From a virus, in IMG/VR virus record IMGVR_UViG_3300007276_000043, positions 1-64,000 of that record: a stretch of DNA of 64,000 bases; one strand, given 5' to 3'. A program made the position numbers and the translations under genes. Each line of letters begins with the position of its first letter. Positions within the stretch are counted from its first letter, which is position 1. A model generated the notes under the pieces. The model had not been told where the DNA came from. It saw only the letters and a list, made by a program, of their open reading frames with translations, and did not search any database. Of the stretch, positions 12,626-47,965 are shown one piece after another.

Positions 12626-15577
12626 CTAGAATTGAACGCCTGATCTTGTGATAACAAAATCAATTGCAATAAATTCTATTGCTCTTGCTGGCTTGACGAA
12701 AATCTTAGCATATAAAATGTTTTGATCAACCAAAGAAGGTGTCGTAGTTGTTTCGTCTAGAATAAGCTTGTATTCTGTGATTCCAAATCTTGCTTGGACA
12801 TCAGCCAAGATCAAATCAGCACTTGACTTGAAACGTGACCATGTTGCTTGAACATTTTGATCAAAAAGAATAGTATCTGCAATTGCTCCAACTCTCTTCT
12901 TGAGGTAAATCATCAATCGTCTTACATTGATCCTGTCCAATGCGGAAGGAGTTTGTTGCAGTGTCTTCTGACCGAAGATTACAATTTCTCCAACTGCTGG
13001 GAATCGTGCGATTGGGTTGATATTTAATTCATATAGTTCATCGCGATCTGCTTTTGGAAGGTTCTTCCAAGTTCCGACAACGCGAGGGCCGTCATTTCCA
13101 CCAAGGATAGAGATACCACCACGATTGAACCCAGCAGGTGCGAACCAAGGTCCTTCTGAATTTGCGTCAGAGAAAGCCAAAGCTCCAAGGCCAGCTACAG
13201 AAGCAGGAGCGACAAATACATCACCGTTTCCAGAAAGTGTATCGCGCATACGAACTCTTGGGTAGTAAGTGGCTGCGTAGCTAGTGTTTAAATCTCTAGT
13301 GCGAGCAGTGGCTTTAACATCATTAATTGAACCACCGGTTCTTGTACCTGAATTTTCGTATGTTTCTTTGTATTCATCATCCAAATCAATAATCGCTAAT
13401 GCATCGCCACGATCTTCAACGTCGGAAAGTAATTGATTACTTAGTGCTGTGTTTGTGAGGCCAGGAATAGAAACAACATCATAAGCTACTACTTCACTAT
13501 CTGATATAGAATCAATTGCTTTCTTAATTGAATAATTAGCATAGTGCGTAGTGTCATCGCGACTAGTAACATCTAAAACATTTTTATTTGAAAATGGATC
13601 TACTTGTGTTATATCAAGACCGTCAAATCCACCAAACATTGGAAGAGCAAACTTGCGAACACCGTCAGTCAATAGTGATTGTGATCCTGAAGCTGCTGTT
13701 TCGGCATGACCGGTTGCATGAGACCCAGAGGCCCAATAAAATTTACCATCAAGTTTTCTAACTTCATCTAAAGAAAATACAAAAGAATATTGTGTTGCAT
13801 CAGCAGCATTGTGTAGATCTATTCCACCGCCTTGGTAACGAAGTAGATCAATATAACTTCTATCACTTAAAGTATTTCTTTCGTTTTTAGAAGCAAACTT
13901 GTGCTTTAATCCAAAAAGATCTTTTGCAAGGTAATTTGAACCAGCCCTTGCTGTATTTTGTTCTGTTAATTTTAATCTTGGAGTAGAGAAAGACATTGTT
14001 AATTCCACTGTTGCGTCTTCCGTTCCGAGACCGTAGAAAATAGCATTAGCTGCGTCTCCACTAAAATAAGGAACACCAGCGGCGGCAGCTTTAGCATAAA
14101 GACCAGTCGCTGCTGTTGCGTTAGCAAGTAATGTACCTTCGGGAAGAAGATTTGCACCACTACCAGAAACAATAGAAAAACCTTTTTGATGGACTGGGCC
14201 AAAGAATCCCCAAGGAATCTTGTATGCATCATCGATTGTAGCTTTCCAGTCATCAGCCATTTCTATACGAATGTAATCTGATTGATTTGGATACTCTCCA
14301 TATAATTCATACCGCTCTTTGTTATTGTCCCAGGTTTGAAATTGATCGCCTAATCTCTTTCCTACAAAGTCTTCTGAGGATTCGTCAAGGTTTAGGTTTG
14401 AAAATTGCTCTACTATATCGTCATTTAAGTTACGAACTGTGATTGAAAAAGATGAATTTGGATTCTTAACTGATCCGAGTTGTAGATCTTCAACTGCAAT
14501 ATAGTAATTTTTCTCAAACCAATCGCCTTCACTTAGAGCAACCAAACGAAAAAGTTTTGATTGCTTATCAGAAGCAAAGTTTGCAGTATCTACTGTGGGA
14601 GCAGGATCACGATTGATGACCCAACCGGTCTTTGAGGTAGTTGCTTGTGCCGTGTGGTATAACAGGTTATTGGCAGCAAGCGAACCTGATTGCAATGGTA
14701 GCAATAAACCATATTGTTGACCAGCGGTGGCGGCTGTGCCACCTGGGCTTGTTATCAAGCGGCTAACTGCTTCTTCATATGTTTCTCCAACAAAATAATT
14801 TTTTGCCTGACCAGCAGCAAAATTAGTTGAATAGGTTTTTTGCGGATTTGTGTTTAAAACATTTCTAATATAGTTTGTTTTCTCATCTGGGTCTAGGTGG
14901 AATACCAATGATTCAGCAGGACTCCAAGATGCAGGGGCAACGGCAGCAGCATCAGTTGATACTTCTATTTTAAAGGTTGCAGGTTTTCCTGCTGTTGAGA
15001 TAGACTCAATAAGGGCACCAGCGGAAGAAGTAGTAACTGTTCCACCAGTACCTGCTAGAGTTCCACTTAAAGTAAGTGCCGAACCTGTTGTATAAAAAAC
15101 TGCCGCTAGTGTTCCATTAAGCTGCGAGCCTCCGGAGCCAGAAGGAACTATAAATAACCCATAAGCAGTTCCATTAGACGCTGGGGCCGCTTCTAAGTCT
15201 GCGCCTCCAAGATCCCAACCAGCTTTAACATAGCCGTCGGCTTGGCTTGGTGAATCTTCACCAAGAAGGCGCACAAATGTAACAGGAGATGTGTTTGATG
15301 CCAACCATGCTTGGGCAGCATACATCGCATATGTAGGGCCTTGGTTGTTACCATCACGCCAAACATCATCATTGATTGTGCCTTTGCCACTAACTGGCTT
15401 TCCAAATACATCAGTGAAATTTTCTAAACTATTAACCTTAATCGGCTTGAGAGCCGGTCCACTTGGTGAACGGCCAATAACTAATAAACCATCGTCTTGC
15501 AACGGAGCTTCAATTTTACTCTGATCAATCTCTGTGATCTGAACTCCAGGTGAAACGAAATCAAACTTTCTAGGCAT
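12626..15577 (-). CDS. Tail sheath protein, gp18-like
   Basis: A 983-residue contractile sheath protein. The N-terminus FDFVSPGVQITEID and the C-terminal 100 residues (INVRRLMIYLKKRVGAIADT, then ATWSRFKSSADLILADVQA) are the conserved inner-layer parts that hold neighbouring sheath rings together. T4 gp18 has 659 residues, so about 320 extra residues sit in the middle, probably as surface-exposed domains. The gene follows the gp15-like stabiliser and precedes the tube genes, as in T4, and has its own candidate late promoter. Confidence 0.9.
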   Translation of the reverse strand: MPRKFDFVSPGVQITEIDQSKIEAPLQDDGLLVIGRSPSGPALKPIKVNSLENFTDVFGKPVSGKGTINDDVWRDGNNQGPTYAMYAAQAWLASNTSPVTFVRLLGEDSPSQADGYVKAGWDLGGADLEAAPASNGTAYGLFIVPSGSGGSQLNGTLAAVFYTTGSALTLSGTLAGTGGTVTTSSAGALIESISTAGKPATFKIEVSTDAAAVAPASWSPAESLVFHLDPDEKTNYIRNVLNTNPQKTYSTNFAAGQAKNYFVGETYEEAVSRLITSPGGTAATAGQQYGLLLPLQSGSLAANNLLYHTAQATTSKTGWVINRDPAPTVDTANFASDKQSKLFRLVALSEGDWFEKNYYIAVEDLQLGSVKNPNSSFSITVRNLNDDIVEQFSNLNLDESSEDFVGKRLGDQFQTWDNNKERYELYGEYPNQSDYIRIEMADDWKATIDDAYKIPWGFFGPVHQKGFSIVSGSGANLLPEGTLLANATAATGLYAKAAAAGVPYFSGDAANAIFYGLGTEDATVELTMSFSTPRLKLTEQNTARAGSNYLAKDLFGLKHKFASKNERNTLSDRSYIDLLRYQGGGIDLHNAADATQYSFVFSLDEVRKLDGKFYWASGSHATGHAETAASGSQSLLTDGVRKFALPMFGGFDGLDITQVDPFSNKNVLDVTSRDDTTHYANYSIKKAIDSISDSEVVAYDVVSIPGLTNTALSNQLLSDVEDRGDALAIIDLDDEYKETYENSGTRTGGSINDVKATARTRDLNTSYAATYYPRVRMRDTLSGNGDVFVAPASVAGLGALAFSDANSEGPWFAPAGFNRGGISILGGNDGPRVVGTWKNLPKADRDELYELNINPIARFPAVGEIVIFGQKTLQQTPSALDRINVRRLMIYLKKRVGAIADTILFDQNVQATWSRFKSSADLILADVQARFGITEYKLILDETTTTPSLVDQNILYAKIFVKPARAIEFIAIDFVITRSGVQF

Positions 15578-19273: not shown

Positions 19274-21091
19274 CTAGGAACCAGACTCACCATTCAATCC
19301 ACGAACGATAACAAGACCGTACATGTCAGGACGAACCATCTTCTTGGCATAACGAGTCATTACGCCCTTGCGAGGTACAAAGTCCTCAACACCGAAGATA
19401 GTTGGTGTAACTTGGAGAGGTACATAAGGAGCATATACATAGCCACTTTCAAGGAAAGAGCTACCCTTACGACCAACAAGAACAACATTACGAGGGAAAT
19501 AAGGATCCACGATAACATCAAACTTGCGACTCAAAGAACCAACTTTTTGTGCTCCGATTTCGCCTTTGTCTGCATCAGCAGTAACATTGGCACGGAAACC
19601 AGCGGTGAACTCAAGTACATTAGCAACTTCTGGTGAACAAACAACAAAGTTTGCGCCGCCACGAAGTGTCTTACGGTGAATTTGAGCAGAAACATCATTG
19701 ATAGTTTCAATCAAAGTCTCGTACCATTCGCTAACAGTACCTGTGAAGTCAGGAGCAGCAGAAGTTGCACCCAATTCAAGACCAGTAGTACGGTCAACAA
19801 AAAGACCAGGAGAACGTGACCAGTAATAAGTACCAGCAGTTGCACCGTTAACGAGGTCAGCAAGGATCTCGCGGTCAATTTCCAAAGCAATTTGCTCTGA
19901 AAGGATAGAAGTCAATTCAACTTCAGCATCCAAGTTGTGATAAGCATTCAAGTCTTGACCCAATTCTGGAGTCCACTTGGCTTTCAATTTCTTGGTTTGC
20001 GCTGTAATAGCTGTACTGTCAACTTTGATGTCAATCTCAGGAATTCGGGCTTCGCCTTCCAATCCATAAGCATTAGCATCTGTGTTAACTGAACCTAAAG
20101 CAGCACCAGCATTGAGCAAGTCAATAACTGGGAATTCCAAAGCACCAGCGGCCAAGTCAGCAGAAGCAGCGGCAGCAGCGGTAGCGACAACGGAACTGAC
20201 TCCGAGAGCCTCAACTGCTACATAACGAATTGCAGAAGCTGAAAGGTTAGTATTAGCAGCAGCAACGCGAGAAGTAAGACGTCTTACAACAGTAATATCA
20301 CCATTGGCTTGAGTCTCAACAGCATTACCAAGTGCAGCATCGCCAATTACAAATGCACTCATGTTATCAAAATCAGGTGTCATTGCGCCATTAGATGATG
20401 TGTGTGCGGATTCCAAAATATCAACAATACAAATACCAGTTCCATCTGTCAAAGACAAAAGGTCTGGGTCATACTGGATAAGTTTTTTGTTTGCTTCTGT
20501 GACACTACCATTTAAGTTGAATGCTCGGTGACATTTTATAAATGAAATGTGTGTTGCAGCAGCATTTGATCCAGTTGGTGAGCCATAAGCATAACCAACA
20601 CGACCTTCACGACCAGGGCCGCCAAAATCAGCTTTGTTACCTGGTAAAAGATCAACACCAGAAATGATGTCTTTACCAACTTGATCTGTACCGTAAATTG
20701 ATTTATTTACAGCGTTACCAAGTCTAGCAGTAATAGTATCTGCTCCAAGATTCGGACTAAATGTGAAATCTAGGAAGAAAATAAGACCTGATGGTAAGCT
20801 CATTGGTTGAACTGATACCAAGTCGTTAGCAATCAATCCAGCGAAAACACGACGGACGATTGGGAAAGCGACAGCAGCGAAACCTTCAACGTCGCCAGCA
20901 GCCATAGAAGAACTTTCACGAAGAAGTTCCTTTGCTTGGTTTTCTAAAAGACGAGCCATTCCGTGCTTTTGTCTCTCAGTTTGAAGACCTTCAAGTAAAC
21001 CTGTTTGTGACCATTTGTTGAGAAGAGCTTCGCCTTCTTTGGCCATGTCACGGTTTACTATGCCTTCTGTAAGTGTATTCAAAATAGACAT
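19274..21091 (-). CDS. gp23: Major capsid protein, gp23-like
   Basis: A 605-residue HK97-fold capsid protein of the T4 type. The N-terminal propeptide parallels T4: EALLNKWSQTGLLEG, ARLLENQAKELLRE, then SSSMAAGD. The prohead protease consensus (L/I)xE puts the probable cut after Glu59. The body has AFPIVRRVFAGLIANDLVSV and QPMSLPSGLIFFLDF, matching the T4 region VRRAIPNLIAFDICGVQPM. The C-terminus KMVRPDMYGLVIVRGL is also family-typical. The ribosome site TAAGGAGGT is a nine-base match to the 16S tail, the best seen here, as expected for the most abundant virion protein. Confidence 0.95.
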   Translation of the reverse strand: MSILNTLTEGIVNRDMAKEGEALLNKWSQTGLLEGLQTERQKHGMARLLENQAKELLRESSSMAAGDVEGFAAVAFPIVRRVFAGLIANDLVSVQPMSLPSGLIFFLDFTFSPNLGADTITARLGNAVNKSIYGTDQVGKDIISGVDLLPGNKADFGGPGREGRVGYAYGSPTGSNAAATHISFIKCHRAFNLNGSVTEANKKLIQYDPDLLSLTDGTGICIVDILESAHTSSNGAMTPDFDNMSAFVIGDAALGNAVETQANGDITVVRRLTSRVAAANTNLSASAIRYVAVEALGVSSVVATAAAAASADLAAGALEFPVIDLLNAGAALGSVNTDANAYGLEGEARIPEIDIKVDSTAITAQTKKLKAKWTPELGQDLNAYHNLDAEVELTSILSEQIALEIDREILADLVNGATAGTYYWSRSPGLFVDRTTGLELGATSAAPDFTGTVSEWYETLIETINDVSAQIHRKTLRGGANFVVCSPEVANVLEFTAGFRANVTADADKGEIGAQKVGSLSRKFDVIVDPYFPRNVVLVGRKGSSFLESGYVYAPYVPLQVTPTIFGVEDFVPRKGVMTRYAKKMVRPDMYGLVIVRGLNGESGS

Positions 21092-34388: not shown

Positions 34389-35212
34389 TATTCGAGCACC
34401 TCAGAAACAAAATCTTGAATATAAAATACTTCTTTTACCAATTCTTCGGTAATTGGAGTTTTCTTATAATTTTCAAGCTTCTCAAGAATTCTTTGAGTAT
34501 TATTATAGAATTCTTTATTATTTTTAATTTTATCTGTCTCGGAACATTTTGAGACTTGTTCCTTGAGTCGGGCCACTTCTTCGTTCAAAAACGATTTAAG
34601 ACCAAGGCCGTTATCTGAGAAAGATGTGATATAGTTTGTTAAGAGATCCTTTTGTTCTTTACGAAGGGTATTATCATAAGTTTCATTAAATTTGTTAACG
34701 AATGTCTTATACTCCAAACTATCAATATGTTTCATTTCTTGCTTTTCTTCTGTCTTTGTAGAAGCAAGCATTCCAACGACTCTTTGTTCCAAAATCAAAC
34801 GAGTTTTAGCATTAGCACCCTCTGAATTGAAATACTGATACAAAGATCCGATGTTCTTATAATTTGATATAAAGTTTGAGAAAACAGCATTAGAATAAGA
34901 TTCGTTGATCTCTTTAATTAAAGCGGTCTGTTGGTTGAAGATTTCTTTCTTATCAAGATTATTGAAATCTTTTTTGACCTCAAACAAAAATCTTTGAGAA
35001 AGATTCGGAGACATTACTTCTGCTTCTAATACAGATTTGTAGATTTCCAATTCTTTTTTAAGCGGAGAACCAGCATTAAAATATTTTTTAATGGTCTCCA
35101 GCACTTTTTGTTTTTTCTCTTCTTGTCCTCGGACAATTGCTTTTGTTAATTCTGTGATTAATGATTCGTAAAGAAAAGCGGTATTTCTTTTCTTATTGTG
35201 TCTTACTCTCAT
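34388..35212 (-). CDS. Unknown helical prohead-region protein
   Basis: A 274-residue protein, almost wholly helical and Lys/Glu/Asn-rich, beginning MRVRHNKKRNTAFLYESLI. It has coiled-coil segments at about 45-75 and 210-260. The start overlaps the end of the portal gene by 20 bases, so the two are translationally coupled. No catalytic motif was found. A prohead core or portal-associated role is inferred from position. Confidence 0.55.
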   Translation of the reverse strand: MRVRHNKKRNTAFLYESLITELTKAIVRGQEEKKQKVLETIKKYFNAGSPLKKELEIYKSVLEAEVMSPNLSQRFLFEVKKDFNNLDKKEIFNQQTALIKEINESYSNAVFSNFISNYKNIGSLYQYFNSEGANAKTRLILEQRVVGMLASTKTEEKQEMKHIDSLEYKTFVNKFNETYDNTLRKEQKDLLTNYITSFSDNGLGLKSFLNEEVARLKEQVSKCSETDKIKNNKEFYNNTQRILEKLENYKKTPITEELVKEVFYIQDFVSEVLE

Positions 35213-37124
35213 TTTCTGTGTTCTCCGATTTGTTTAAGCCTTCTAAAAGCTTCTTTATTTCTGTTGATGTTTTAAATAGTTTTTCTTCTTCTATTTTGTC
35301 CAATGATTTATTTTCTGTTATACCTCTGGCTAATGAGTCCAGCCCACCATAGCCAGTCTTACCTTTATAAATACTTCTGGTTGTGTTTCCAAACTCGCCT
35401 GTGGCTTGATTTTTCATATGTTTAGAAAAGCCGCCTTTGCGATATTTTAACTGATGTTTCTTATATGGACCTCTGGTTTTATCGTCGTCTCGTTTACCGG
35501 GGGCAGCGAGAAGAGTACCATCGTCTTCAGCAGCAGCGGGTTCTTCGGCAGCACCTTCGTCCCCGCCAAGATCAAGTTCATCACCGCCGCCAAGATCAAG
35601 TTCATCACCGCCAGTATCATCACCGCCGAGGTCAAGGTCTCCACCGCCGCCAGTGGCTTCGGGTGCTTGTCCAGCGGCTTCAAGTCCAGCCATAAACTTT
35701 CTATCATAGAACATTTCTCTTTGCATTCTAATGAATTCGTCTTCGGAGATACCAAACATATGTTCAGCGATCCATCGCATGGAAAAGAACCCTTCAGTAG
35801 CAGCACCGGCGACATCAAATTTGGTTTTCCAATGTTCAAGTTCTTGGAGTTCAGCGATCTTTGAAGGATTATTCAAAGCAAGGTCAAATGCTAAAAGATC
35901 GTCTCCTCTGAAGCCTAAAGTAAAAAGATGAATAATTCCAATTTTTTCCAATTCTGAAATAACAACTCTTTGTAATCTTTGAATTGTTCTGGCGAAACGA
36001 ATATCCTTTTGTGCTAAAGTTGTTTTATCCTCTGAGGATCCTTCGCCCATAACAAGATATGATTGGGGAACTTTAAGAGCAGCAAATAATTTTTCTCTTA
36101 AATACTTAACATCTTCTACGGTTCCTGTAAATTGACCACCGGGGAGGTTTTGTATTTCTGTTCCAGAAGCACCACCGCGAATAGGAATAAAGTAATCTTC
36201 TTCAATTGATAAGGGATTATAGCGAAGATCAACTCGACCAGTTTTTGGATCAACAACTTGATGTCGTTTCATTTGAGTCATAACTTTCTGCATATACTGT
36301 TCAACATCGTTTGGTGCGATATTTCCAACATCAATTTTAAACACTCGTCTTTCTGGGCTTCTTACAATTCTATATGCCATCATAGCATCTTCAAGAAGAG
36401 TTAATTGTCTCCAGATACGACGGGCAGGCTCAAGAACCGAAGTTCCATAAGGAGAATGCTTGTCGTTACCAAGAATGCGGAAATGAGCCATTTGCCAGTT
36501 TTCAAGAGTCATACCGGCACTATTCCATTGATATTGGACATAATTTGGGTTTGTCTCATCTTCTCCCTCTAATCTTTCAATTTCTTGGGGAGGTAGACCG
36601 ATTACGCTTCTGATTCCCATTTTGTCATCAATGTCCAAATATAAAAACAAATCCCCATACTTACACATTGTACGAGACCAACCAAAGAGATTGTGGTCAA
36701 TGTTTAAAACATTATGATACAAAGAGTGTAAAATAGACTTTATTTCTTCATTAGGGCACTTAATTCTTAACATGGGTTGTAAAGAAGAATGAGTGGTCAT
36801 TTCATCAGCATAAATATCAATAGCAGAAGCAATGATAGGTTCATATTCCATTTGGTCAAAATCGACATACCTCTCAGAACGACCCCTGTTGGAAATCATA
36901 TTAAGAGTGGTCACATTCATTGGGTTGTATTCTGACTTCTTAAATTGTTGTCCGGAAGCAGATTTAAACTTAGAAGAATAAATATCCAAATGTCTTCTTC
37001 TTAATTGGCGACCCGATTGTGTTCGTCTCTGTGTTAGTGGACCAGAGAGCAATCTTGTTAGTTGCTTAAATAATCCTGATTCGTCATTATATGGGTTTCT
37101 TGTATTCTTTCTTCTTGGGGCCAT
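35193..37124 (-). CDS. gp20: Portal protein, gp20-like
   Basis: A 643-residue portal, the ring through which DNA enters the head. Family features are SNRGRSERYVDFDQMEYEPI, then ASAIDIYADEMTTHS, and EPARRIWRQLTLLEDAMMAY with RSPERRVFKIDVGN. T4 gp20 has 524 residues; the extra length is a C-terminal extension with acidic Gly-rich repeats (DELDLGG units at about residues 495-525) followed by a basic stretch (KKHQLKYRKGGFSKHMKNQ). It lies five bases after the terminase large subunit, as gene 20 follows 17 in many relatives. Confidence 0.9.
   Translation of the reverse strand: MAPRRKNTRNPYNDESGLFKQLTRLLSGPLTQRRTQSGRQLRRRHLDIYSSKFKSASGQQFKKSEYNPMNVTTLNMISNRGRSERYVDFDQMEYEPIIASAIDIYADEMTTHSSLQPMLRIKCPNEEIKSILHSLYHNVLNIDHNLFGWSRTMCKYGDLFLYLDIDDKMGIRSVIGLPPQEIERLEGEDETNPNYVQYQWNSAGMTLENWQMAHFRILGNDKHSPYGTSVLEPARRIWRQLTLLEDAMMAYRIVRSPERRVFKIDVGNIAPNDVEQYMQKVMTQMKRHQVVDPKTGRVDLRYNPLSIEEDYFIPIRGGASGTEIQNLPGGQFTGTVEDVKYLREKLFAALKVPQSYLVMGEGSSEDKTTLAQKDIRFARTIQRLQRVVISELEKIGIIHLFTLGFRGDDLLAFDLALNNPSKIAELQELEHWKTKFDVAGAATEGFFSMRWIAEHMFGISEDEFIRMQREMFYDRKFMAGLEAAGQAPEATGGGGDLDLGGDDTGGDELDLGGGDELDLGGDEGAAEEPAAAEDDGTLLAAPGKRDDDKTRGPYKKHQLKYRKGGFSKHMKNQATGEFGNTTRSIYKGKTGYGGLDSLARGITENKSLDKIEEEKLFKTSTEIKKLLEGLNKSENTENESKTQ
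35560..35650 (-). repeat. Short tandem repeats in portal gene tail
   Basis: Two near-perfect copies of a roughly 25-base unit and further degenerate ones encode DELDLGG/DLDLGG. The repeats are coding and give the portal an acidic, Gly-rich linker. Confidence 0.7.
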
Positions 37125-37129
37125 TTTAT

Positions 37130-38713
37130 TTATCCTTTAAAAATCCAAACAAAATCACTCATTTGTTGTTTTGCTTCTAATTGTTTTTCTTTGATGTCTG
37201 ATCCGTATCCATTCATTCCTTTAATTGAAGTGTTCATTGTGGTTTTGTTTAGATACATAGAATTTAACATTGCTTTTTTATATTCTGCTTCTCTTTGATT
37301 TACTTGTAGTGCGGTATCTCTAACCCAACATGCGATAGCCAAAGACATAACCAAGTCGTCATGATAAGATCGCATGGCTTGGGGTTTTCCATTTTTCCAA
37401 ATAAAGGTTTTAAACTCATGAAAAGTTCTTGACGAATAAAGATTTATCATTTTATTTCTTATAAACTCCTCAAGTTTTGCTACAATCAAAGGACGAGTCT
37501 TTGTAGAAGTTGTGAAACCCGCTACAGCAGTGTCCATTGCTTCGCCTTGAACAGACTCCACAAATTCATGTGTTGATTTGATTGAGTAATAAAGGTTGGG
37601 ATACCCAAGAGTAATTAGTTTTTCCAAGATCGATATACCAATTCCGTTGTTTTCAACAACTAAAAGGCAATTTCCGTATTCCGTACCTGCACTGAACAAC
37701 ATTTGAGAGTACATATCAAGAGTTGGTTTGCCTTGGTATTCTGCTACAATTTCCATTGTTTCTAATTTTAAAACATGAAATACAGAATTATCAGCACCGT
37801 CGCCTCTAGCAACATCAGCAACAAGCATATAGGAAAACCCTTCTTCAAATTTCTCCCAAATCCAAAAGTTTCTATCATACCCTGTTCTATATACTGGTTC
37901 TCTAATTGTTTCGTTTATCCAAGCAATATCATCAGGGTGGATTACTGTGTCGCCTGATGTATTAAAGTTGCATTCTAACTCTTGTGCTATTTGTCTCCGA
38001 GACATATTTTTTGTCTCTTTGTTGAACCACTCATGGTTTCTTTCGGGGTGAACATCCCATGGAAGACAAACCGGGTGGAAATCGTTCTCTTTATTGTCGG
38101 CATCAATATAGGTTTTATGAAACCAGTTTCCAACACCGTTTGGAGTTGAAAGAGCAATGCAGCGACCACCAGTTGATAGAGTAGGATACAAACCAGTCCA
38201 GAGTTCTTTTAACCCATCAACGTGAGCAGCCTCATCAATTACCAAAAGCGAAAGAGCTTCAGAACGACCGGCGTCGCCAGAAGTAGAAGCGGCTTTGATT
38301 TGTGATCCATTTGATAATTCAAATGATGTTCTGTTATCAATTGAAATTGTAGCCACTTGCATCCAAGGAGGCAGATTCTTCATTATAGCTTTTACTTTCT
38401 TTACCAAGTTGGCAGCAGTCGCAAATTTGGTTGCGATGACCAGAACATTTTTATCACGATGAAACAACATAAGCCACACACAATATGCGGCTGTAATAGT
38501 TGAAATGCCCAACTGTCGGGCTTTTAGTATAACTGTAAAGCGGAAATCATTGTAGTCGTTTAATAAATCATCTTGATACGGATAAGTTTTAAACGGAACG
38601 AGTCCTTTCAGTGGGTGTGAGATCCTACAAAAATTATTTGTAAAGTAAACTGGATCTTTCCCGCATTTAAGGATTTCTTTTACAATCTCCTTTTTTGAGA
38701 GTTTAAAAGACAT
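37130..38713 (-). CDS. gp17: Terminase large subunit, gp17-like
   Basis: A 527-residue DNA-packaging motor. The ATPase has a Walker A variant KARQLGIST at residues 64-72, Walker B LLVIDEAAH with Asp159 and Glu160, and a coupling motif ALSTPNG near 186-192. The nuclease begins at MLVADVARGDGADNSVF with Asp299. T4 gp17 has 610 residues; this is a compact version. It overlaps the preceding 180-residue gene by one base and precedes the portal gene. Confidence 0.95.
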   Translation of the reverse strand: MSFKLSKKEIVKEILKCGKDPVYFTNNFCRISHPLKGLVPFKTYPYQDDLLNDYNDFRFTVILKARQLGISTITAAYCVWLMLFHRDKNVLVIATKFATAANLVKKVKAIMKNLPPWMQVATISIDNRTSFELSNGSQIKAASTSGDAGRSEALSLLVIDEAAHVDGLKELWTGLYPTLSTGGRCIALSTPNGVGNWFHKTYIDADNKENDFHPVCLPWDVHPERNHEWFNKETKNMSRRQIAQELECNFNTSGDTVIHPDDIAWINETIREPVYRTGYDRNFWIWEKFEEGFSYMLVADVARGDGADNSVFHVLKLETMEIVAEYQGKPTLDMYSQMLFSAGTEYGNCLLVVENNGIGISILEKLITLGYPNLYYSIKSTHEFVESVQGEAMDTAVAGFTTSTKTRPLIVAKLEEFIRNKMINLYSSRTFHEFKTFIWKNGKPQAMRSYHDDLVMSLAIACWVRDTALQVNQREAEYKKAMLNSMYLNKTTMNTSIKGMNGYGSDIKEKQLEAKQQMSDFVWIFKG

Positions 38714-41745: not shown

Positions 41746-44700
41746 CTATTTTAAAACAACATTAGCATATCCATCAATCTTATCTATATCAATGGTCATG
41801 TCTACAACATCTTTTAGTGATTCAAGGTGAGATACGAGCAATACAATCTTAAATTGTGTCTTTACCATCTCTAACAAACGAACAAATCCTTCCATGTGCT
41901 CGGCATCCAATGCTGTTGCTGGTTCATCAAGCACAAAAAGGTTTCCAACTGGTAAGTTAGTAATTGAAATCATACCAAGCCGTATAGCCATAGAAGCCAA
42001 TGTTTTCTCAGCACCAGAAGCCATAGAAAGAGGTCTTGGGTCATATGCTGGGTGTTTGATAAATATATCTAACTTGGAGTCTGTATTATCAAAAAAGACC
42101 TCGAAGTCAACAATATTAGCCAGAACTTTTCCTATTTCTTCATTAATAATTGGAAGACGATCTTTAATAATGTTGTATGAGATTCCATTAGCGTGCATAC
42201 ATCGCATAAACATTTCATAAGCAACCCACTTGTTTTCATAGCCCTTATACTCTTCAAGTTCTTTCTCGATGTTCTTTATGATTTGGGCGGTTGATCCCTG
42301 TTCAATAAGACATTCTTGCAACTGCTCATTACATTTAGTATGTACTTGTCGCAGTTGGGATATCTTTGTTTCAAGTGCTTTCTTTTCTCTCGTAAGTGTT
42401 CCAAGGTTCTCAATGGCTTCTCTGTTTTCTTCATATTCCGCTTCCTGATTTCTTAAACTTTCTATTTGATTCTTTAAAAGATTCAACTTGTCTTTATTAG
42501 ACGATAGTTCCATAGATTTTATTTCATTTTGATTCTGTAATTGATCAATATCTTGAGAAAACTTATTGTGTCTCTCAATATTAGAAGTAATCTCTTCTGG
42601 ATTTATAAAGTTTATTTTTTCTTGTATGTCTGAGACAAACTCTTGTAATTCCTCAATCATTTTGGTTGTGGGCATTATTTTAGTTGAAGCATCGTGAGCA
42701 TCTTTTACAAACTGATTGCTTACACAATACTTGCAATTAGGATCATACTGGTGTTCGTCAAGAAGTTTAACTTTTGATTTTAGATTTTCTAATATTTTTG
42801 TTTGTTGATTTAATTTTAATGTTATTATTGACTTTCGTTCTTTATGAGTTTTACAAGTTTCATTTAGAGAAACAAGTTGTTCATAATTCAAATCGTCAAG
42901 AACCATTTTATATTGTTCTACAAACTCTTCATTATTTAATATTTCTTTTTGAAGGTCGATGTTTTCATGTAAAATTCTCTTAACACCTTCTTCTTTAGAA
43001 ACAATATCGGCCTTAACTTTATCAATATCAATTATCTCCGCTGGTATTGAAGATATAATATCTTCTACTTCTTTTAATTTGCCGGTAAAAGATTCAACTG
43101 ATTTTGTTGTCTTCTGACATTCTTTTTTCTTATTCTCAATTGCTTCAACTATTTCTTCTAAAAGTTCTTGGTTTTTGGTTATATCTTCAAGATAATTCTT
43201 TGCTTCAAACTTCTTAATTAAAGTTTTAATATCAGCGGAGTCCTTTTTGGCTAATTTAAACTTCTGATCGAAGATATCCAAGTCAAGGAATTTAGCAATA
43301 ATCTCTTTCCTCTTCGTCGAACCTTCTTTGATAAACGACAGGGAGTCAAGCTGTGAGGCCATAGAGGTTAGTAGAAAGTCGTCAATCGTACCAAACTTCC
43401 TTCTGATATTAGCATCGGTCTCGTTGCGAGTGGTTCCGTTTAAACTCTCTTCAACTCCACCAATTTCTTTTGTAAAATCAAGATCAACCTTTGCTTCAAT
43501 TGTTTCCTTGCCTTTTAGTTTTCTTGTATACTTGTTCAAATTGCGAGCAATCTTGTATGTCGCATTATCTGATTCTATTTCAAGAAGAATTTTGGCATCT
43601 TGTTTGTTCTGGTTGATTATGTGGACATTTTTTCTTTCATTTTTAGAAGTTGTATTATACATTCCGTATAAAACACTATCAATAATAGAAGATTTACCGG
43701 AGTAGTTCTTACCAAAAATACCCACGATACCATTAAGTCGATCAAAGTTGATAGTGTTCTTTTCGCCATAGTTAAAAAGATTGTCCCAAGTCGCACTCTT
43801 AAGTTTCCAAATAACATTTCTTGTTATCTCCTCGTTTTCTTCAACGGTTTGATTATATTTTCTGTTTAATTCCAATACCTTATCCATGATTCCATCATCG
43901 AGTTCCATATCTTTAAGGTATTTTCTAATATATTTCTCTTGTACTGTGATATCTCGGAGGTTTTCTTTCTTTAAAGCATCGGAAAGGTTTGTCTTTTCGT
44001 TACCTTTGTAGCTCGTCTTGACACTAAATGAGACACTTATTGGTCGCCACTTAACCTTGGCAAAATCCATCGCTCTTTTCATTTTAATTGGAGGTATAAG
44101 ATTAGAACCAATTAAACGCAAGCGACAACCAATAGGAACATCAACTTTGGGCAATTGTCCTGTCTTAGTTAACACAACGTTAACAAACGGACGAGGGTTG
44201 TTAAGCTTATGAAATTTAACCTTAAAATCTGTTTTGTCGTTAATGTGCCACATTAAGTAGCCTTTATCAACATCCTCTCCAAAGTTCTGCTGAACAGTGG
44301 AGCCGCAATATGCTATTGTGCCTGTCTTATTAAGGAACTGCTTCTTATGTATATCTCCGAGCATAGCATAATCAAAATTCTTGAATATATCCGAATCATG
44401 CTCTCCAAACTCCATGGTATAGCCTAAATCGGTTTGACAATTTGAGATTGCTCCATGGTATAGGGCGACATTAATCTTGCTATCATCGGTGGGCTGTGTC
44501 CAATTTTCTTCGTCAAACACTGAAAGGACATTAAATACTATCTTATCATCGAGTGAAAATTCACCGGCATCTTTGAGAAAATGAAGATTAGGGTGCTTTA
44601 GTGCTGCGACGATTGGACCAATAGCATCTTCGCGATTAGCATTTTTAAGGTTACCATCGTGGTTACCTGCTATAATAATAGTGGGTGCTACATTCGCAAG

Positions 44701-44913
44701 GTTACTTAAAAACTCTGTTGCAAGAGAAAAATACTCTGGTGATAGTTGTGTCTTTGTGTGAGCCAAGTCGCCACAATGAACAATATAATCTGGTTGAGAT
44801 TCTTTCAACTGCTTATAAAGATCAGCAAAGGCTTCACGATATTCAAAATGGTATTTTAAATTACGGATATGAGTATCGGCTATATGAGCCAATTTAATTG
44901 TCTTGTTATTCAT
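41746..44913 (-). CDS. Fused Mre11/Rad50-type nuclease (gp47-gp46, SbcDC)
   Basis: A 1,055-residue fusion of two proteins that are separate in T4 and in bacteria. Residues 1-350 are a metallophosphoesterase nuclease: IADTH (Asp13, His15), CGDLAH, GNHD (83-86) and GDIHKKQ near 186. From about 370 an SMC-like ATPase follows, with Walker A GIFGKNYSGKSS (398-409), long coiled coils with a zinc-hook CKYC near 725, and a C-terminal signature SMASGAEKT with Walker B LFVLDEPATALD near 991. It resects DNA ends for recombination-dependent replication. It starts eight bases after the PEP carboxykinase stop. Confidence 0.9.
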   Translation of the reverse strand: MNNKTIKLAHIADTHIRNLKYHFEYREAFADLYKQLKESQPDYIVHCGDLAHTKTQLSPEYFSLATEFLSNLANVAPTIIIAGNHDGNLKNANREDAIGPIVAALKHPNLHFLKDAGEFSLDDKIVFNVLSVFDEENWTQPTDDSKINVALYHGAISNCQTDLGYTMEFGEHDSDIFKNFDYAMLGDIHKKQFLNKTGTIAYCGSTVQQNFGEDVDKGYLMWHINDKTDFKVKFHKLNNPRPFVNVVLTKTGQLPKVDVPIGCRLRLIGSNLIPPIKMKRAMDFAKVKWRPISVSFSVKTSYKGNEKTNLSDALKKENLRDITVQEKYIRKYLKDMELDDGIMDKVLELNRKYNQTVEENEEITRNVIWKLKSATWDNLFNYGEKNTINFDRLNGIVGIFGKNYSGKSSIIDSVLYGMYNTTSKNERKNVHIINQNKQDAKILLEIESDNATYKIARNLNKYTRKLKGKETIEAKVDLDFTKEIGGVEESLNGTTRNETDANIRRKFGTIDDFLLTSMASQLDSLSFIKEGSTKRKEIIAKFLDLDIFDQKFKLAKKDSADIKTLIKKFEAKNYLEDITKNQELLEEIVEAIENKKKECQKTTKSVESFTGKLKEVEDIISSIPAEIIDIDKVKADIVSKEEGVKRILHENIDLQKEILNNEEFVEQYKMVLDDLNYEQLVSLNETCKTHKERKSIITLKLNQQTKILENLKSKVKLLDEHQYDPNCKYCVSNQFVKDAHDASTKIMPTTKMIEELQEFVSDIQEKINFINPEEITSNIERHNKFSQDIDQLQNQNEIKSMELSSNKDKLNLLKNQIESLRNQEAEYEENREAIENLGTLTREKKALETKISQLRQVHTKCNEQLQECLIEQGSTAQIIKNIEKELEEYKGYENKWVAYEMFMRCMHANGISYNIIKDRLPIINEEIGKVLANIVDFEVFFDNTDSKLDIFIKHPAYDPRPLSMASGAEKTLASMAIRLGMISITNLPVGNLFVLDEPATALDAEHMEGFVRLLEMVKTQFKIVLLVSHLESLKDVVDMTIDIDKIDGYANVVLK

Positions 44914-44921
44914 TGAAGTTC

Positions 44922-46373
44922 CTATTGTTCAGGTTTCAGTTTTTTTATCAAGTCGTTTGCTGTCTTTTTATATTCCTCTATGTCCGTCCAACCTTGTTCT
45001 GGGAACATAATATTATTTGGAGCATAGTTTACCAATGGGATTGAGAATCCCGTGTATCGATGTTTAGTAAACATAACCTTAGAGAACTCGCCTGTCAAGA
45101 TTAAATTAATAATTTTTCTTGTTATCTCTAGAGAAATTCTTTTTCCTTTTCCGTAACCACCACCAGTCCAACCAGTATTAACAAGCCAGCAGTTAATATT
45201 GTGTTCTTCTATTTTGTTCTTCAGTAAGTTAGCATATGTATCAACCTTTAAAGGCATAAATGGTTGTCCGAAACAGGCTGAGAAGGTTGGGACAGGCTCT
45301 TTAACACCTTTCTCAGTTCCAGCAACTTTAGCAGTATATCCAAGTTTAAATTGCTGAACTGCTTCTTCTGTGGATAATTTCATCACTGGCGGTAGAACTC
45401 CGAAAGCATCACAAGTCAACATAACAATGTTTTTAGGGTGCTTATTAACATAGCCCATTATATGGGAATTGGGCACCACATCCGTTGAATAAGAGGCTCT
45501 ACCGTTCTCTGTGATGGACCCATCATCAAAGTCGGGCTTACCGTCTTTCATTACAACATTTTCCAATATCGTTCCTACCGACTTACAAGCATTCCAGATC
45601 TCTGGTTCTCCTGTTTCTGAAAGGCGAATGGTTTTAGCGTAACAGCCGCCTTCGATATTTGTAAGACCATTATCTGTCCAAAGGTGTTCATCATCGCCAA
45701 TTAAGACTCTATTGGGGTCAGCAGATAGGGTTGTTTTACCTGTGCCTGATAATCCAAAGAAAATAGTTGGATTTTCATTGCCCTTATCAACGTTCACAGA
45801 ACAATGCATTGGTAGAAAGCCTTTACTCGGTGTTAAAAAATTGATAAGAGTAAAAGCCGCTTTCTTGATTTCACCAGCATAATAAGTTCCAGAAATAAGA
45901 ATTAACTTTTCTGATACTGAAATCATTACCCTTGGTTCGTCTAAAAGTGACGGCAAGTGTAAAATAGTATATATATCAGTGACTTCCGGCGAATCTATAA
46001 CTTGTTCTTTTGTGATAAACATATTCCTAACAAACTGTGAGTGTCTCGCATATTCCGTATATACACGGAATCCAATTGCATGCTCAGGGTCTCTTATTAG
46101 AAGAGCGTCTTGTAAGTAAACTTCTTTATCTTTGACTGTGTTTAAGAACTTTCTCTTCATTTTATTAAAAGCACCTTTGGTCATTTTTTGATTCTCGGAC
46201 CAATCTACTTTTGTTTTTGTTTGCTTCTCATTAACAATATACTTTGCTGTTGGGCAGCGACCAGTATATTCACCAGTATAAGTGACGAGTGCTCCGTCTT
46301 CCGTTAAAGAACAACCTTCTTTTTCTATGGCGATCTCTAACAGTTTCGGTGTTTCTAAATTTTTATAAATCAT
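44922..46373 (-). CDS. pckA: Phosphoenolpyruvate carboxykinase, ATP-type
   Basis: A 483-residue enzyme that converts oxaloacetate plus ATP to phosphoenolpyruvate, CO2 and ADP, or the reverse. All key parts are present: TGRCPTAKYIV (Arg39), GTYYAGEIKK (Tyr165, Lys170, Lys171), LPMHCSVNV (His190), the P-loop FFGLSGTGKTTLSADP (205-220), LIGDDEHLW (Asp227, Asp228), NIEGGCYAK, and NGRASYS (Arg292). Bacterial PckA has about 530-540 residues, so this is shortened mainly at the N-terminus but looks active. Its ATG overlaps the primase stop as ATGA, and the recombination nuclease follows. It would thus be made with replication proteins. Confidence 0.93.
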   Translation of the reverse strand: MIYKNLETPKLLEIAIEKEGCSLTEDGALVTYTGEYTGRCPTAKYIVNEKQTKTKVDWSENQKMTKGAFNKMKRKFLNTVKDKEVYLQDALLIRDPEHAIGFRVYTEYARHSQFVRNMFITKEQVIDSPEVTDIYTILHLPSLLDEPRVMISVSEKLILISGTYYAGEIKKAAFTLINFLTPSKGFLPMHCSVNVDKGNENPTIFFGLSGTGKTTLSADPNRVLIGDDEHLWTDNGLTNIEGGCYAKTIRLSETGEPEIWNACKSVGTILENVVMKDGKPDFDDGSITENGRASYSTDVVPNSHIMGYVNKHPKNIVMLTCDAFGVLPPVMKLSTEEAVQQFKLGYTAKVAGTEKGVKEPVPTFSACFGQPFMPLKVDTYANLLKNKIEEHNINCWLVNTGWTGGGYGKGKRISLEITRKIINLILTGEFSKVMFTKHRYTGFSIPLVNYAPNNIMFPEQGWTDIEEYKKTANDLIKKLKPEQ

Positions 46374-47308
46374 AAATTCCTCAAAGCATTAATTAGAAAA
46401 AAATTGTCGTAATCTACCGACTTTGCTTGGTTTTTTCTCTCAATAAAAACGTCATGAGACATAGAACCAACGTCCTCACAACCAGAGGTATCTATTTCAA
46501 GCAACTCGATATCATATTGTAGCATATTTTTAACGATTTGTCCAGTCTTTTTTTTCGCGTCTTCGTCTAAAGCCAAGTAAACTGGTGTATCATTTATCGC
46601 AATTGCTTGAAATAGTTTGGTGTTTTCTCGGAGAGTTGAGCCGAGAATAGGAATAGCGTTTTCCCCAGCCACTATGGCGTCAAAAACTCCTTCTACGAGG
46701 ATCACCGGACTATCCCAGTCTACAGAAAGTTGATTGAATATTATGTCCTTCTCGGCTGTTGGATTGAGATACTTTCTCTGGTGACCAACATACGATCTCG
46801 CAATAAAATAATTAACATTTCCGTCGTTGTTAAAAGACGGTATAATTACTCTGCCGCCGAAACGACCATCGTCACAATAACCAATCTTCCATTTCAATAT
46901 TTGTTCTCTGGTTATTCCTCTCAATTGAAGATAGTTGAGAACTCTTTTGGAGGAGTAGGGCAGGTGCTTGTTACAAAGAGAGATAAATTTCTCTGGTAGT
47001 TCAATTACTTGCTCTTCTTCTACATCATTCATTTCTGCGAAGATATTCTCAAATTCGTTTAAATCAAGACGACCTTCAAGTTCAAGCCACTTCTGTCGTT
47101 GTTGGTATGTTCCAAATTTACGAACAAGACGATAAATGTTCTTGCCGCTAGCAGAACATACCCAACATTTATAGCAACCTTTCGCAAAATTAACGGACAT
47201 TTTCTTTTTGTGGTGATTACAAACTGGGCAAGAAAAAATAAACTCGTCTCTAGACTTTCTATAAGATCCAAGTATATTACAAATAATCTTCTTTTTTTGC
47301 TCAAACAT
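46370..47308 (-). CDS. DNA primase, DnaG/gp61-like
   Basis: A 312-residue primase. The N-terminal zinc finger has CPVC (27-30), HH and CWVC (48-51), and the TOPRIM domain has VILVEGVFDAI (Glu206) and YLALDEDAKKK. The length suits a primase without a fused helicase, like T4 gp61. GAGAGGTGAC precedes the ATG, with a sigma-70-type promoter just upstream. Its stop is coupled to the PEP carboxykinase start. No replicative helicase lies in this window. Confidence 0.9.
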   Translation of the reverse strand: MFEQKKKIICNILGSYRKSRDEFIFSCPVCNHHKKKMSVNFAKGCYKCWVCSASGKNIYRLVRKFGTYQQRQKWLELEGRLDLNEFENIFAEMNDVEEEQVIELPEKFISLCNKHLPYSSKRVLNYLQLRGITREQILKWKIGYCDDGRFGGRVIIPSFNNDGNVNYFIARSYVGHQRKYLNPTAEKDIIFNQLSVDWDSPVILVEGVFDAIVAGENAIPILGSTLRENTKLFQAIAINDTPVYLALDEDAKKKTGQIVKNMLQYDIELLEIDTSGCEDVGSMSHDVFIERKNQAKSVDYDNFFLINALRNL

Positions 47309-47326: not shown

Positions 47327-47354
47327 AACATAACATATTATATTATTTTGTCAA
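47327..47354 (-). promoter_or_regulatory. Sigma-70-type promoter for primase operon
   Basis: In mRNA sense TTGACA (47354-47349) and TATGTT (47332-47327) are 16 bases apart. The -35 lies in the end of the nucleotidyltransferase gene. It would drive primase, PEP carboxykinase and the fused nuclease. Confidence 0.65.
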
Positions 47355-47965
47355 GAAGAAACGATTATTCTCATAAAGTCATCATACATTGCTGGTAGTG
47401 GGAGGGCTTTTTCTACCTCTTCTTTATTTCCATCAGCAATAGCATTTCTTAAGTTTGTGGCTGATATTTCATCGGCATTAACTGTAATTGGGGGTAAATC
47501 TGTCTGGGCATTGTTATAGTCTTTTGTTATCTTTGCGAACTTCTCTCCACGACCAGCATCTTTTGATGAGTGACCAAGAGCAAACACCTTGCCTTGAAAT
47601 AAAGCAGGGTCGGCGTCCTTTACAAAATCAATAGCATCGGCAAATGGATTTTCATACTCTTTGCCTTTGCTTGAGATTCTTGAAGACGATCTAATCAACT
47701 CAACCTTGGGATCTTTGGTAACTCCGTAAAGATCAAATATTTTAAGAGTTTTATCAACATCAAAAGACATCGTTCCGTCGTCACTTTGTCTCGGAGCAGA
47801 ACCAACAAACACAAATACCTTCTCGACATCGGGGTGTTCGGCATATTTTCTGATCATTTGAAGGTGACCTTTATGTGGAGGTTTATACCCACCGGGCAAA
47901 AGAATAATATATTTATCTTTTTCTTCGGTTAAGAATCTTCTCCAATTTTCAAACAGTCTTCTCAT
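47351..47965 (-). CDS. HxGH nucleotidyltransferase with N-terminal tag
   Basis: A 204-residue enzyme of the cytidylyl/adenylyltransferase superfamily. The signature is LLPGGYKPPHKGHLQMI (HKGH at about residues 33-36) and the second motif ISATNLRNAI near 175, a variant of the ISxTxxR site. NMN adenylyltransferase in NAD synthesis is one candidate; the substrate cannot be fixed. Before the fold is an 18-residue tag, MRRLFENWRRFLTEEKD, containing FLTE, the same four residues as the T4 capsid-protein cleavage site. Related tags begin the two genes upstream. AAAGGA precedes the ATG. Confidence 0.8.
   Translation of the reverse strand: MRRLFENWRRFLTEEKDKYIILLPGGYKPPHKGHLQMIRKYAEHPDVEKVFVFVGSAPRQSDDGTMSFDVDKTLKIFDLYGVTKDPKVELIRSSSRISSKGKEYENPFADAIDFVKDADPALFQGKVFALGHSSKDAGRGEKFAKITKDYNNAQTDLPPITVNADEISATNLRNAIADGNKEEVEKALPLPAMYDDFMRIIVSS

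Follow-up and report, generated by a model that had tools for sequence, protein, structure and literature searches.

The window, by which we mean the first 64,000 nucleotides of the IMG/VR virus record IMGVR_UViG_3300007276_000043, carries in a phage replication operon a gene, pckA, that encodes an intact and probably active ATP-type phosphoenolpyruvate (PEP) carboxykinase (ATP-PEPCK). We consider it rather probable that this is a working enzyme of a virus-only branch, held as cargo in a variable slot, probably made early or in the middle of infection and most likely converting oxaloacetate to PEP. Its activity, time of expression, direction of reaction and benefit to the phage are what we infer from the evidence given below. 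Metabolic genes of phages are commonly interpreted as recent acquisitions from a host. The present enzyme of central carbon metabolism falls in a virus-only branch that occurs in many large phages and bears signs of lasting selection. If this is correct, some phages would have long had a point of control of their own over which way host carbon flows.

The pckA gene and its product

The gene and its assignment are as follows.

44922..46373, minus strand: pckA, ATP-type PEP carboxykinase, 483 amino acids, assigned by PF01293, active-site residues and structural model

The reading frame starts with ATG and contains no internal stops. The product matches PF01293 (PEPCK_ATP) with E = 4.3e-171 and 570.2 bits (cut-off 26.5), residues 2–446 aligning with positions 3–456 of the 465 in the profile, and this is the sole PF01293 match within the virus record (76,463 bases). 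The score against TIGR00224 falls short of the equivalog cut-off (494.3 against 590.05 bits), and the protein is therefore named ATP-PEPCK by family and residues and not as a TIGR00224 equivalog. Of the six NCBIfam PckA models listed, TIGR00224 included, five have cut-offs that are missed, the subfamily model NF006821 alone being passed (403.5 against 369), and no PHROG matches the protein at E ≤ 0.001.

The active site was inspected at 19 positions in an alignment of E. coli PckA with 80 bacterial and 17 phage rows. The window enzyme carries the E. coli residue at all 19. Seventeen of these are invariant in every phage row that covers them, namely, in E. coli numbering, R65, Y207, K212, K213, H232, S250, T252, K254, T255, D268, D269, E270, K288, E297, R333, F413 and R449 (the R65 position is uncovered in one partial phage row); positions 451 and 455 vary among the 17. 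The P-loop GLSGTGKTT (S250, T252, K254 and T255) corresponds to Ser209, Thr211, Lys213 and Thr214 of the window protein and the metal-binding pair D268/D269 to Asp227 and Asp228, both motifs being kept in all 17 branch rows. R65, Y207, K212, K213, H232 and R333, which we take to bind substrate or metal, correspond to Arg39, Tyr165, Lys170, Lys171, His190 and Arg292, and K288, F413 and R449, presumably forming the adenine site, to Lys247, Phe372 and Arg412. Mutants of the E. coli enzyme at R65, Y207, K212, K213, S250, K254 and D269 are named in PDB titles. The original prediction had listed the P-loop, both metal-binding aspartates and the Arg, Tyr, Lys and His residues as retained, and the alignment bears this out. 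Three other residues are typical of the phage rows, Ala43 (16 of 16), Val193 (16 of 17) and Thr441 (16 of 16), where most cellular enzymes have D69, A235 and F478 (E. coli numbering).

An AlphaFold2 model, calculated from a 15-sequence alignment, has a mean pLDDT of 88.9 and one weak loop (residues 350–357). It superposes on Thermus PckA, the solved enzyme nearest by sequence, with a TM score of 0.91–0.93 (by query length) and an r.m.s.d. of 1.8–2.4 Å, on other solved ATP-PEPCKs with TM scores of 0.86–0.92 and on GTP-dependent enzymes with 0.75–0.78 at 13–16% identity; the E values of the structural matches are 3.4e-59 for the Thermus ATP-type enzyme against 2.6e-22 for the best GTP-type one. 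Fold, P-loop, aspartate pair and substrate and adenine residues are thus alike in the window protein and cellular PckA (EC 4.1.1.49; Thermus 1j3b/1xkv, E. coli 1aq2). With the crystal structures listed by Foldseek the phage protein shares 34–40% identity, and it is shorter (483 residues against 524–560 in the solved cellular chains).

The ratio dN/dS for pckA is 0.083 between the window and one related contig (L003) and 0.120 between the window and another (L004); both values are rough because dS (1.6–2.3) is near saturation. Low dN/dS and the conservation of the active site over a deep branch indicate that selection has long acted on the protein. The family match and the active-site residues agree with the earlier view of an intact enzyme that is probably active.

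Organization of the operon

The genes and signals around pckA, in minus-strand order, are as follows.

47351..47965, minus strand: cytidylyltransferase-like protein, upstream of the promoter element (PF01467, E = 1e-4, 22.9 bits, cut-off 21; phrog_395, E = 7.3e-7)
47327..47354, minus strand: sigma70-like promoter element TTGACA-16-TATGTT with extended -10, just upstream of the primase gene (10 of 12 matches)
46370..47308, minus strand: DNA primase, 312 amino acids (phrog_47, E = 1.7e-41; DNAG_N, 29.9 bits, cut-off 26)
46379..46382, minus strand: GAGG, Shine–Dalgarno-like site of pckA, read from the sequence
44914..44921, minus strand: 8-nt gap between pckA and the SbcDC gene
41746..44913, minus strand: SbcD–SbcC fusion nuclease/ATPase (SbcDC), 1055 amino acids (phrog_77, E = 1.7e-51; phrog_100, E = 5.5e-34; Metallophos and AAA_23)

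The order is therefore cytidylyltransferase-like protein, promoter element, primase, pckA and SbcD–SbcC fusion. The DnaG zinc ribbon of the primase scores 24.3 bits, slightly below its cut-off of 24.9. The stop codon of the primase gene and the start codon of pckA share the ATGA at 46370–46373, and the fusion nuclease, whose ATG is preceded by a ribosome-site-like AGGA, starts at 44913; the ATGA junction and the recombination nuclease eight bases further on had both been noted beforehand and are read directly in the sequence.

The same gene order occurs on L003 and L004, the PckAs of which are 79 and 64% identical to that of the window (63% in a third phage relative). On G004, the record behind locus L005, a primase 63% identical to that of the window is directly followed by pckA, then by a 72-residue ORF, a GIY-YIG ORF (PF01541, E = 5e-8) and the SbcDC gene. 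The pckA frame of G004 is broken by a TGA and a frame change, which may reflect either decay or a sequencing error, and pckA of another record, G023, likewise reads in two frames.

Promoter-like sites are common in the region (45 observed against 32.5, s.d. 5.9, in shuffles), so that the match alone is weak and the sigma70-type promoter proposed at the outset draws its weight from place and conservation. The element recurs before the primase gene in all three relatives. In L003 it is identical letter for letter, in L004 it reads TTGACA-16-TATGAT, with the hexamers kept and a different spacer, and in G004 it reads TTGACA-16-TATGTT, again with a different spacer, and lies 25 bases upstream of the primase match. 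The strict pattern lies upstream of five of the 35 related primases tested (80 were fetched), one of them on the contig of L003; random sequence pieces showed it in 33 cases out of 1800. The promoter was accordingly rejected as a mark shared by all such loci. The data support an arrangement of primase, pckA and SbcDC as one operon behind a host-type promoter element common to four viruses, from which co-transcription of the three genes would follow.

Possible role of the enzyme

In the reading that we favour, pckA is probably read on one message with the primase and SbcDC genes from the host-sigma70-type promoter, and PckA would be made alongside the early or middle replication proteins. The enzyme would most likely run ATP + oxaloacetate → PEP + CO2 + ADP; most known ATP-PEPCKs work toward PEP. 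The PEP could then feed gluconeogenesis and the pentose phosphate pathway and so provide sugar phosphates at the time when nucleotides are needed.

The neighbours of pckA in other phages are suggestive of a link to nucleotides. At loci L013, L018 and L031 pckA comes after genes for a 5'-3' exonuclease, DnaB and a B12-type ribonucleotide reductase (RNR) and two small ORFs, in that order, and L021 and L024 have the same order with DnaB not called. At L203, L206 and L215 DnaE lies upstream of pckA with two ORFs between, one of which in L203 is a D12-class DNA methyltransferase; otherwise neither the ORFs between DnaE and pckA nor the small ORFs beside pckA of L013 match a family above cut-off. 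In a second, all-viral PckA branch, described below, 38 of 39 rows have an N6/N4 DNA methyltransferase ahead of pckA, immediately so in 37; ThyA is found farther upstream in six, many loci being too short to reach that point, and lysozyme lies downstream in some, for example L244. These families were confirmed on L244 (the methyltransferase also on L264) and the remainder assigned by BLAST likeness. RNR is found on 15 of 23 pckA records, four by short weak matches, with a profile that also matches 11 of 14 controls.

Several observations count against the favoured reading: the slot is variable, so that position in the operon is no proof of a replication role, the G004 copy is broken and pckA stands beside other genes in several lineages. 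Such unrelated neighbours include MgtC and OmpA (L015), UvdE and DnaJ (L022), DnaJ (L020) and SAH hydrolase (L026).

Two further kinds of neighbour were seen. A protein with two fasciclin stretches (L264:6570-7613) directly follows pckA in a second-branch phage, and large proteins with MopE-like metal-binding motifs lie near pckA in two lineages (L225:1617-3893 and L022:1698-3839).

The PEPCK reaction is reversible, and an active phage enzyme might instead turn PEP + CO2 + ADP into oxaloacetate and ATP, the oxaloacetate supplying aspartate for pyrimidines and purines. The same active site serves both directions and its residues are kept, aspartate feeds the nucleotides served by the RNR and ThyA encoded near pckA in other phages, and the structures that match the window protein include those from Actinobacillus succinogenes and Anaerobiospirillum succiniciproducens, whose PEPCKs run in the carboxylating direction. 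The nearest solved relative, however, is the Thermus enzyme and not that of a succinate producer, and the prevailing direction of known ATP-PEPCKs also argues against this alternative, to which we give perhaps one chance among several. Formation of PEP remains the direction that we prefer.

A variable cargo slot between primase and SbcDC

A scan of IMG/VR with the primase profile gave at least 80 loci, some of them near-copies, with L004 and L005 outside the matches listed. SbcDC follows the primase in 74 of the 80 loci listed, and the remaining six loci end within 80–2634 nt. The spacing is at most 64 nt in 17 of the 74 listed pairs and 127–4088 nt, with varying ORFs, in the other 57. Among these 57 wider gaps pckA occupies one, L113, which is the contig of L003. 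The ten large slot ORFs examined (L113–L192) have no Pfam match above cut-off. In Microcystis phage Mel-JY01 a 57-residue ORF separates the primase and SbcDC genes and in LR756508 the primase adjoins SbcD; neither record contains a PF01293 match. The gap is a variable cargo slot of 0–4 kb with changing content. As a site in T4-like phages at which genes come and go, it offers a ready place to seek new phage accessory genes.

A GIY-YIG ORF (PF01541; L005:1309-1854) between pckA and SbcDC is a possible mover of slot cargo, and a gene annotated as GIY-YIG also lies upstream of the primase gene in Mel-JY01 (L007).

Because the slot is variable and most related phages lack pckA there, its position is weak evidence of a role in replication. 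The original prediction had taken the coupling of the genes to suggest expression during genome replication. The layout as one operon behind a promoter element found in four viruses is supported. The variability of the slot weakens the link to a replication role; position says more about when pckA may be transcribed than about what it is for. The search for primase–pckA neighbours in other phages, which had been proposed as a check, recovered L003, L004 and G004.

These features raise the question of whether pckA is opportunistic cargo in transit at a hot spot, any benefit being unrelated to replication or not lasting. The changing content of the slot and the broken copy in G004 are in keeping with this. 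So is the divergence between the window and L003, for which dS is 1.58 in pckA against 0.66 in the primase and 0.72 in the SbcDC gene. The higher value may mean that the pckA allele itself has been exchanged, and four of 15 other genes compared also exceed 1.5, all of them upstream of the cytidylyltransferase gene. The low, if rough, dN/dS values and the conservation of the active site across a deep branch count against such transience, which we consider improbable.

A virus-only branch of PckA

Viral PckAs were collected by profile scans that gave 23 loci and then the best 80 of 204, the two sets overlapping; cellular sequences for the first tree were the best 80 bacterial loci listed. All trees are unrooted. 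The first tree sets 20 viral rows, including the window, apart from 80 bacterial and four other viral rows with an SH-aLRT support of 100, the four nesting among bacteria. Later trees omit a partial row (L031) and two near-copies (L016 and L017). A wider, simpler tree places 25 viral rows, again including the window, in one group (99). It also contains the second all-viral branch, of 39 rows within L229–L270 with many near-copies, the PckAs of which are about 40% identical to that of the window (e.g. L244:4986-6467). L223 and L272 lie outside all groups in this tree and were excluded from later ones.

A 65-row tree took in some of the other viral rows, five members of the second branch, and L025 and L225, which are long. 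It splits 31 cellular and eight other viral rows from 26 phage-side rows with 100/99 support. The 26 are 21 rows plus five of the second branch, and the phage group of the window is not one side of a branch in this tree (two changes). Once long branches are removed, a split with 100/100 support, present in 100% of 200 bootstrap trees, divides 19 phage rows from a set of 28 cellular and three other viral ones. This final tree omits 18 rows of the 65-row tree (L025, L225, five of the second branch, five other viral rows on the cellular side and six bacterial rows, for thinning), adds three Pseudomonadota rows and includes the nearest Bacteroidota and Pseudomonadota PckAs. The phylogeny against bacterial and viral PckA that had been called for thus places the window enzyme, in the sample, in a branch made up of many viruses and none of the bacteria.

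Recent capture from a host, the usual origin of auxiliary metabolic genes, is hence very improbable for the window branch. The best cellular identities among the matches listed are 49% (Bacteroidota; 395 genomes, of which 270 gave a match) and 48% (Pseudomonadota; 200 genomes, 34 matched at a strict limit), well below those of the phage relatives given above, and the trees lead us to reject a recent capture from among the cellular PckAs sampled. Such events do occur, and capture is likely for LR756504 (L006), L220 and L222, which group with Bacteroidota PckA. L006 (LR756504.1, 636 kb) is a very large uncultured phage; its grouping, seen in the first tree as well as in the final one, indicates a separate capture.

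From the virus-only branch it appears that phages have long kept and exchanged pckA and did not take it recently from a host. Mean tree distances are 1.84 within the 19 phage rows, 1.31 within the 28 cellular rows and 2.42 between them, so that divergence inside the phage lineage seems to equal or exceed that among the sampled cellular PckAs; faster evolution could contribute. One may tentatively go further, to an ancient phage-owned lineage that would have retained its activity while moving between large phages whose gene neighbourhoods differ, as a recurring enzyme at the branch between TCA cycle and gluconeogenesis, cellular PckAs being possibly sisters and not donors. We regard this as a fair way short of probable.

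The phage nature of the branch was examined with a terminase profile. It gives 12 strong matches and one weak one on 18 branch records and none on three tested records outside the branch. At E ≤ 0.001 the profile also matches 11 of the 14 genomes used as controls, and only the 12 strong matches (E ≤ 3.6e-46) were therefore counted as phage marks. Among the records tested G008–G010 carry near-identical PckAs and G001 is the virus of the window. Seven branch loci lie on contigs of 180–285 kb.

Phage genome context

The structural and packaging genes of the window include the following.

37130..38713, minus strand: terminase large subunit (phrog_2, E = 3.5e-52)
35193..37124, minus strand: portal protein (phrog_213, E = 1.3e-74)
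19274..21091, minus strand: major head protein (phrog_138, E = 1.5e-71)
12626..15577, minus strand: tail sheath, 983 amino acids, contractile tail (phrog_23, E = 4.4e-56)

By these assignments the phage has head, tail and packaging genes of T4 type. Its terminase is most similar, at 40–48%, to those of Flavobacterium, Microcystis and uncultured phages. The tail sheath, at 983 residues, is roughly double the 496 of the phrog_23 profile.

Viral genes lie on both sides of pckA, as for a phage auxiliary metabolic gene: primase and SbcDC adjoin it, and terminase, portal, head and sheath genes are within the window. An assembly chimera or host contamination, a concern given that five records in the GenBank phage set hold a host pckA, is negligibly probable here and was rejected, since pckA matches the window in composition (GC 0.374 and 0.376), has phage genes on either side and keeps its place in the gene order of three further viruses (L003, L004 and G004), each with a different metagenome number in its contig name. 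Bacterial flanks or assembly breakpoints would have spoken for a chimera; the flanks are those of a phage, in an order found in three other viruses. Contig L002 and the window are 100% identical over the 17,449 bases compared, so L002 is the same virus and no independent check.

Among 50,697 GenBank phage records LR756504 alone seems both to be a genuine phage and to match pckA well. The five just mentioned (OR851181, OR845349, OR845858, AGRM01000003 and AFYI01000003) have a pckA 92–95% identical to E. coli PckA and hence seem to contain host chromosome. The pckA matches of Staphylococcus phages UPMK_1 and SA 1298 Kay we also take to be host DNA, and four 'Bacteriophage sp.' records match only by pieces at record ends.

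Relation to known systems

Cyanophages carry auxiliary genes that feed nucleotide synthesis (talC, zwf, gnd and cp12), transaldolase being among the cargo. Like them, the window pckA brings a host-type enzyme of central carbon metabolism into a large tailed phage. It differs from them in acting at the junction of the TCA cycle and gluconeogenesis, and transaldolase occurs on one of the 23 pckA records.

Giant viruses (Catovirus and Klosneuvirus) likewise encode an ATP-type PckA, and the Catovirus enzyme is the best match to our model among viral predicted structures (TM score 0.84, 36% identity). These viruses infect eukaryotes, unlike the window phage, and the trees here were built without their PEPCKs. 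PEPCK of Mimiviridae is described in one report (PMC9270025).

The gene is also on a list of viral auxiliary metabolic genes from trench sediments, as an entry with a sentence on its function (PMC12448302); the likeness is that of the same KEGG gene on viral contigs. In PMC10547907 PEPCK/pckA is an archaeal host gene. No paper on PEPCK in jumbo phages or in bacteriophage genomes from metagenomes came up in the literature covered, which excludes most subscription journals and bioRxiv preprints. Lambda-type CI, according to three papers, represses host pckA (PMC6359870, PMC11959909 and PMC12724203); there a phage acts on the same metabolic step, but by repressing the host gene in lysogens, which is opposite to supplying the enzyme.
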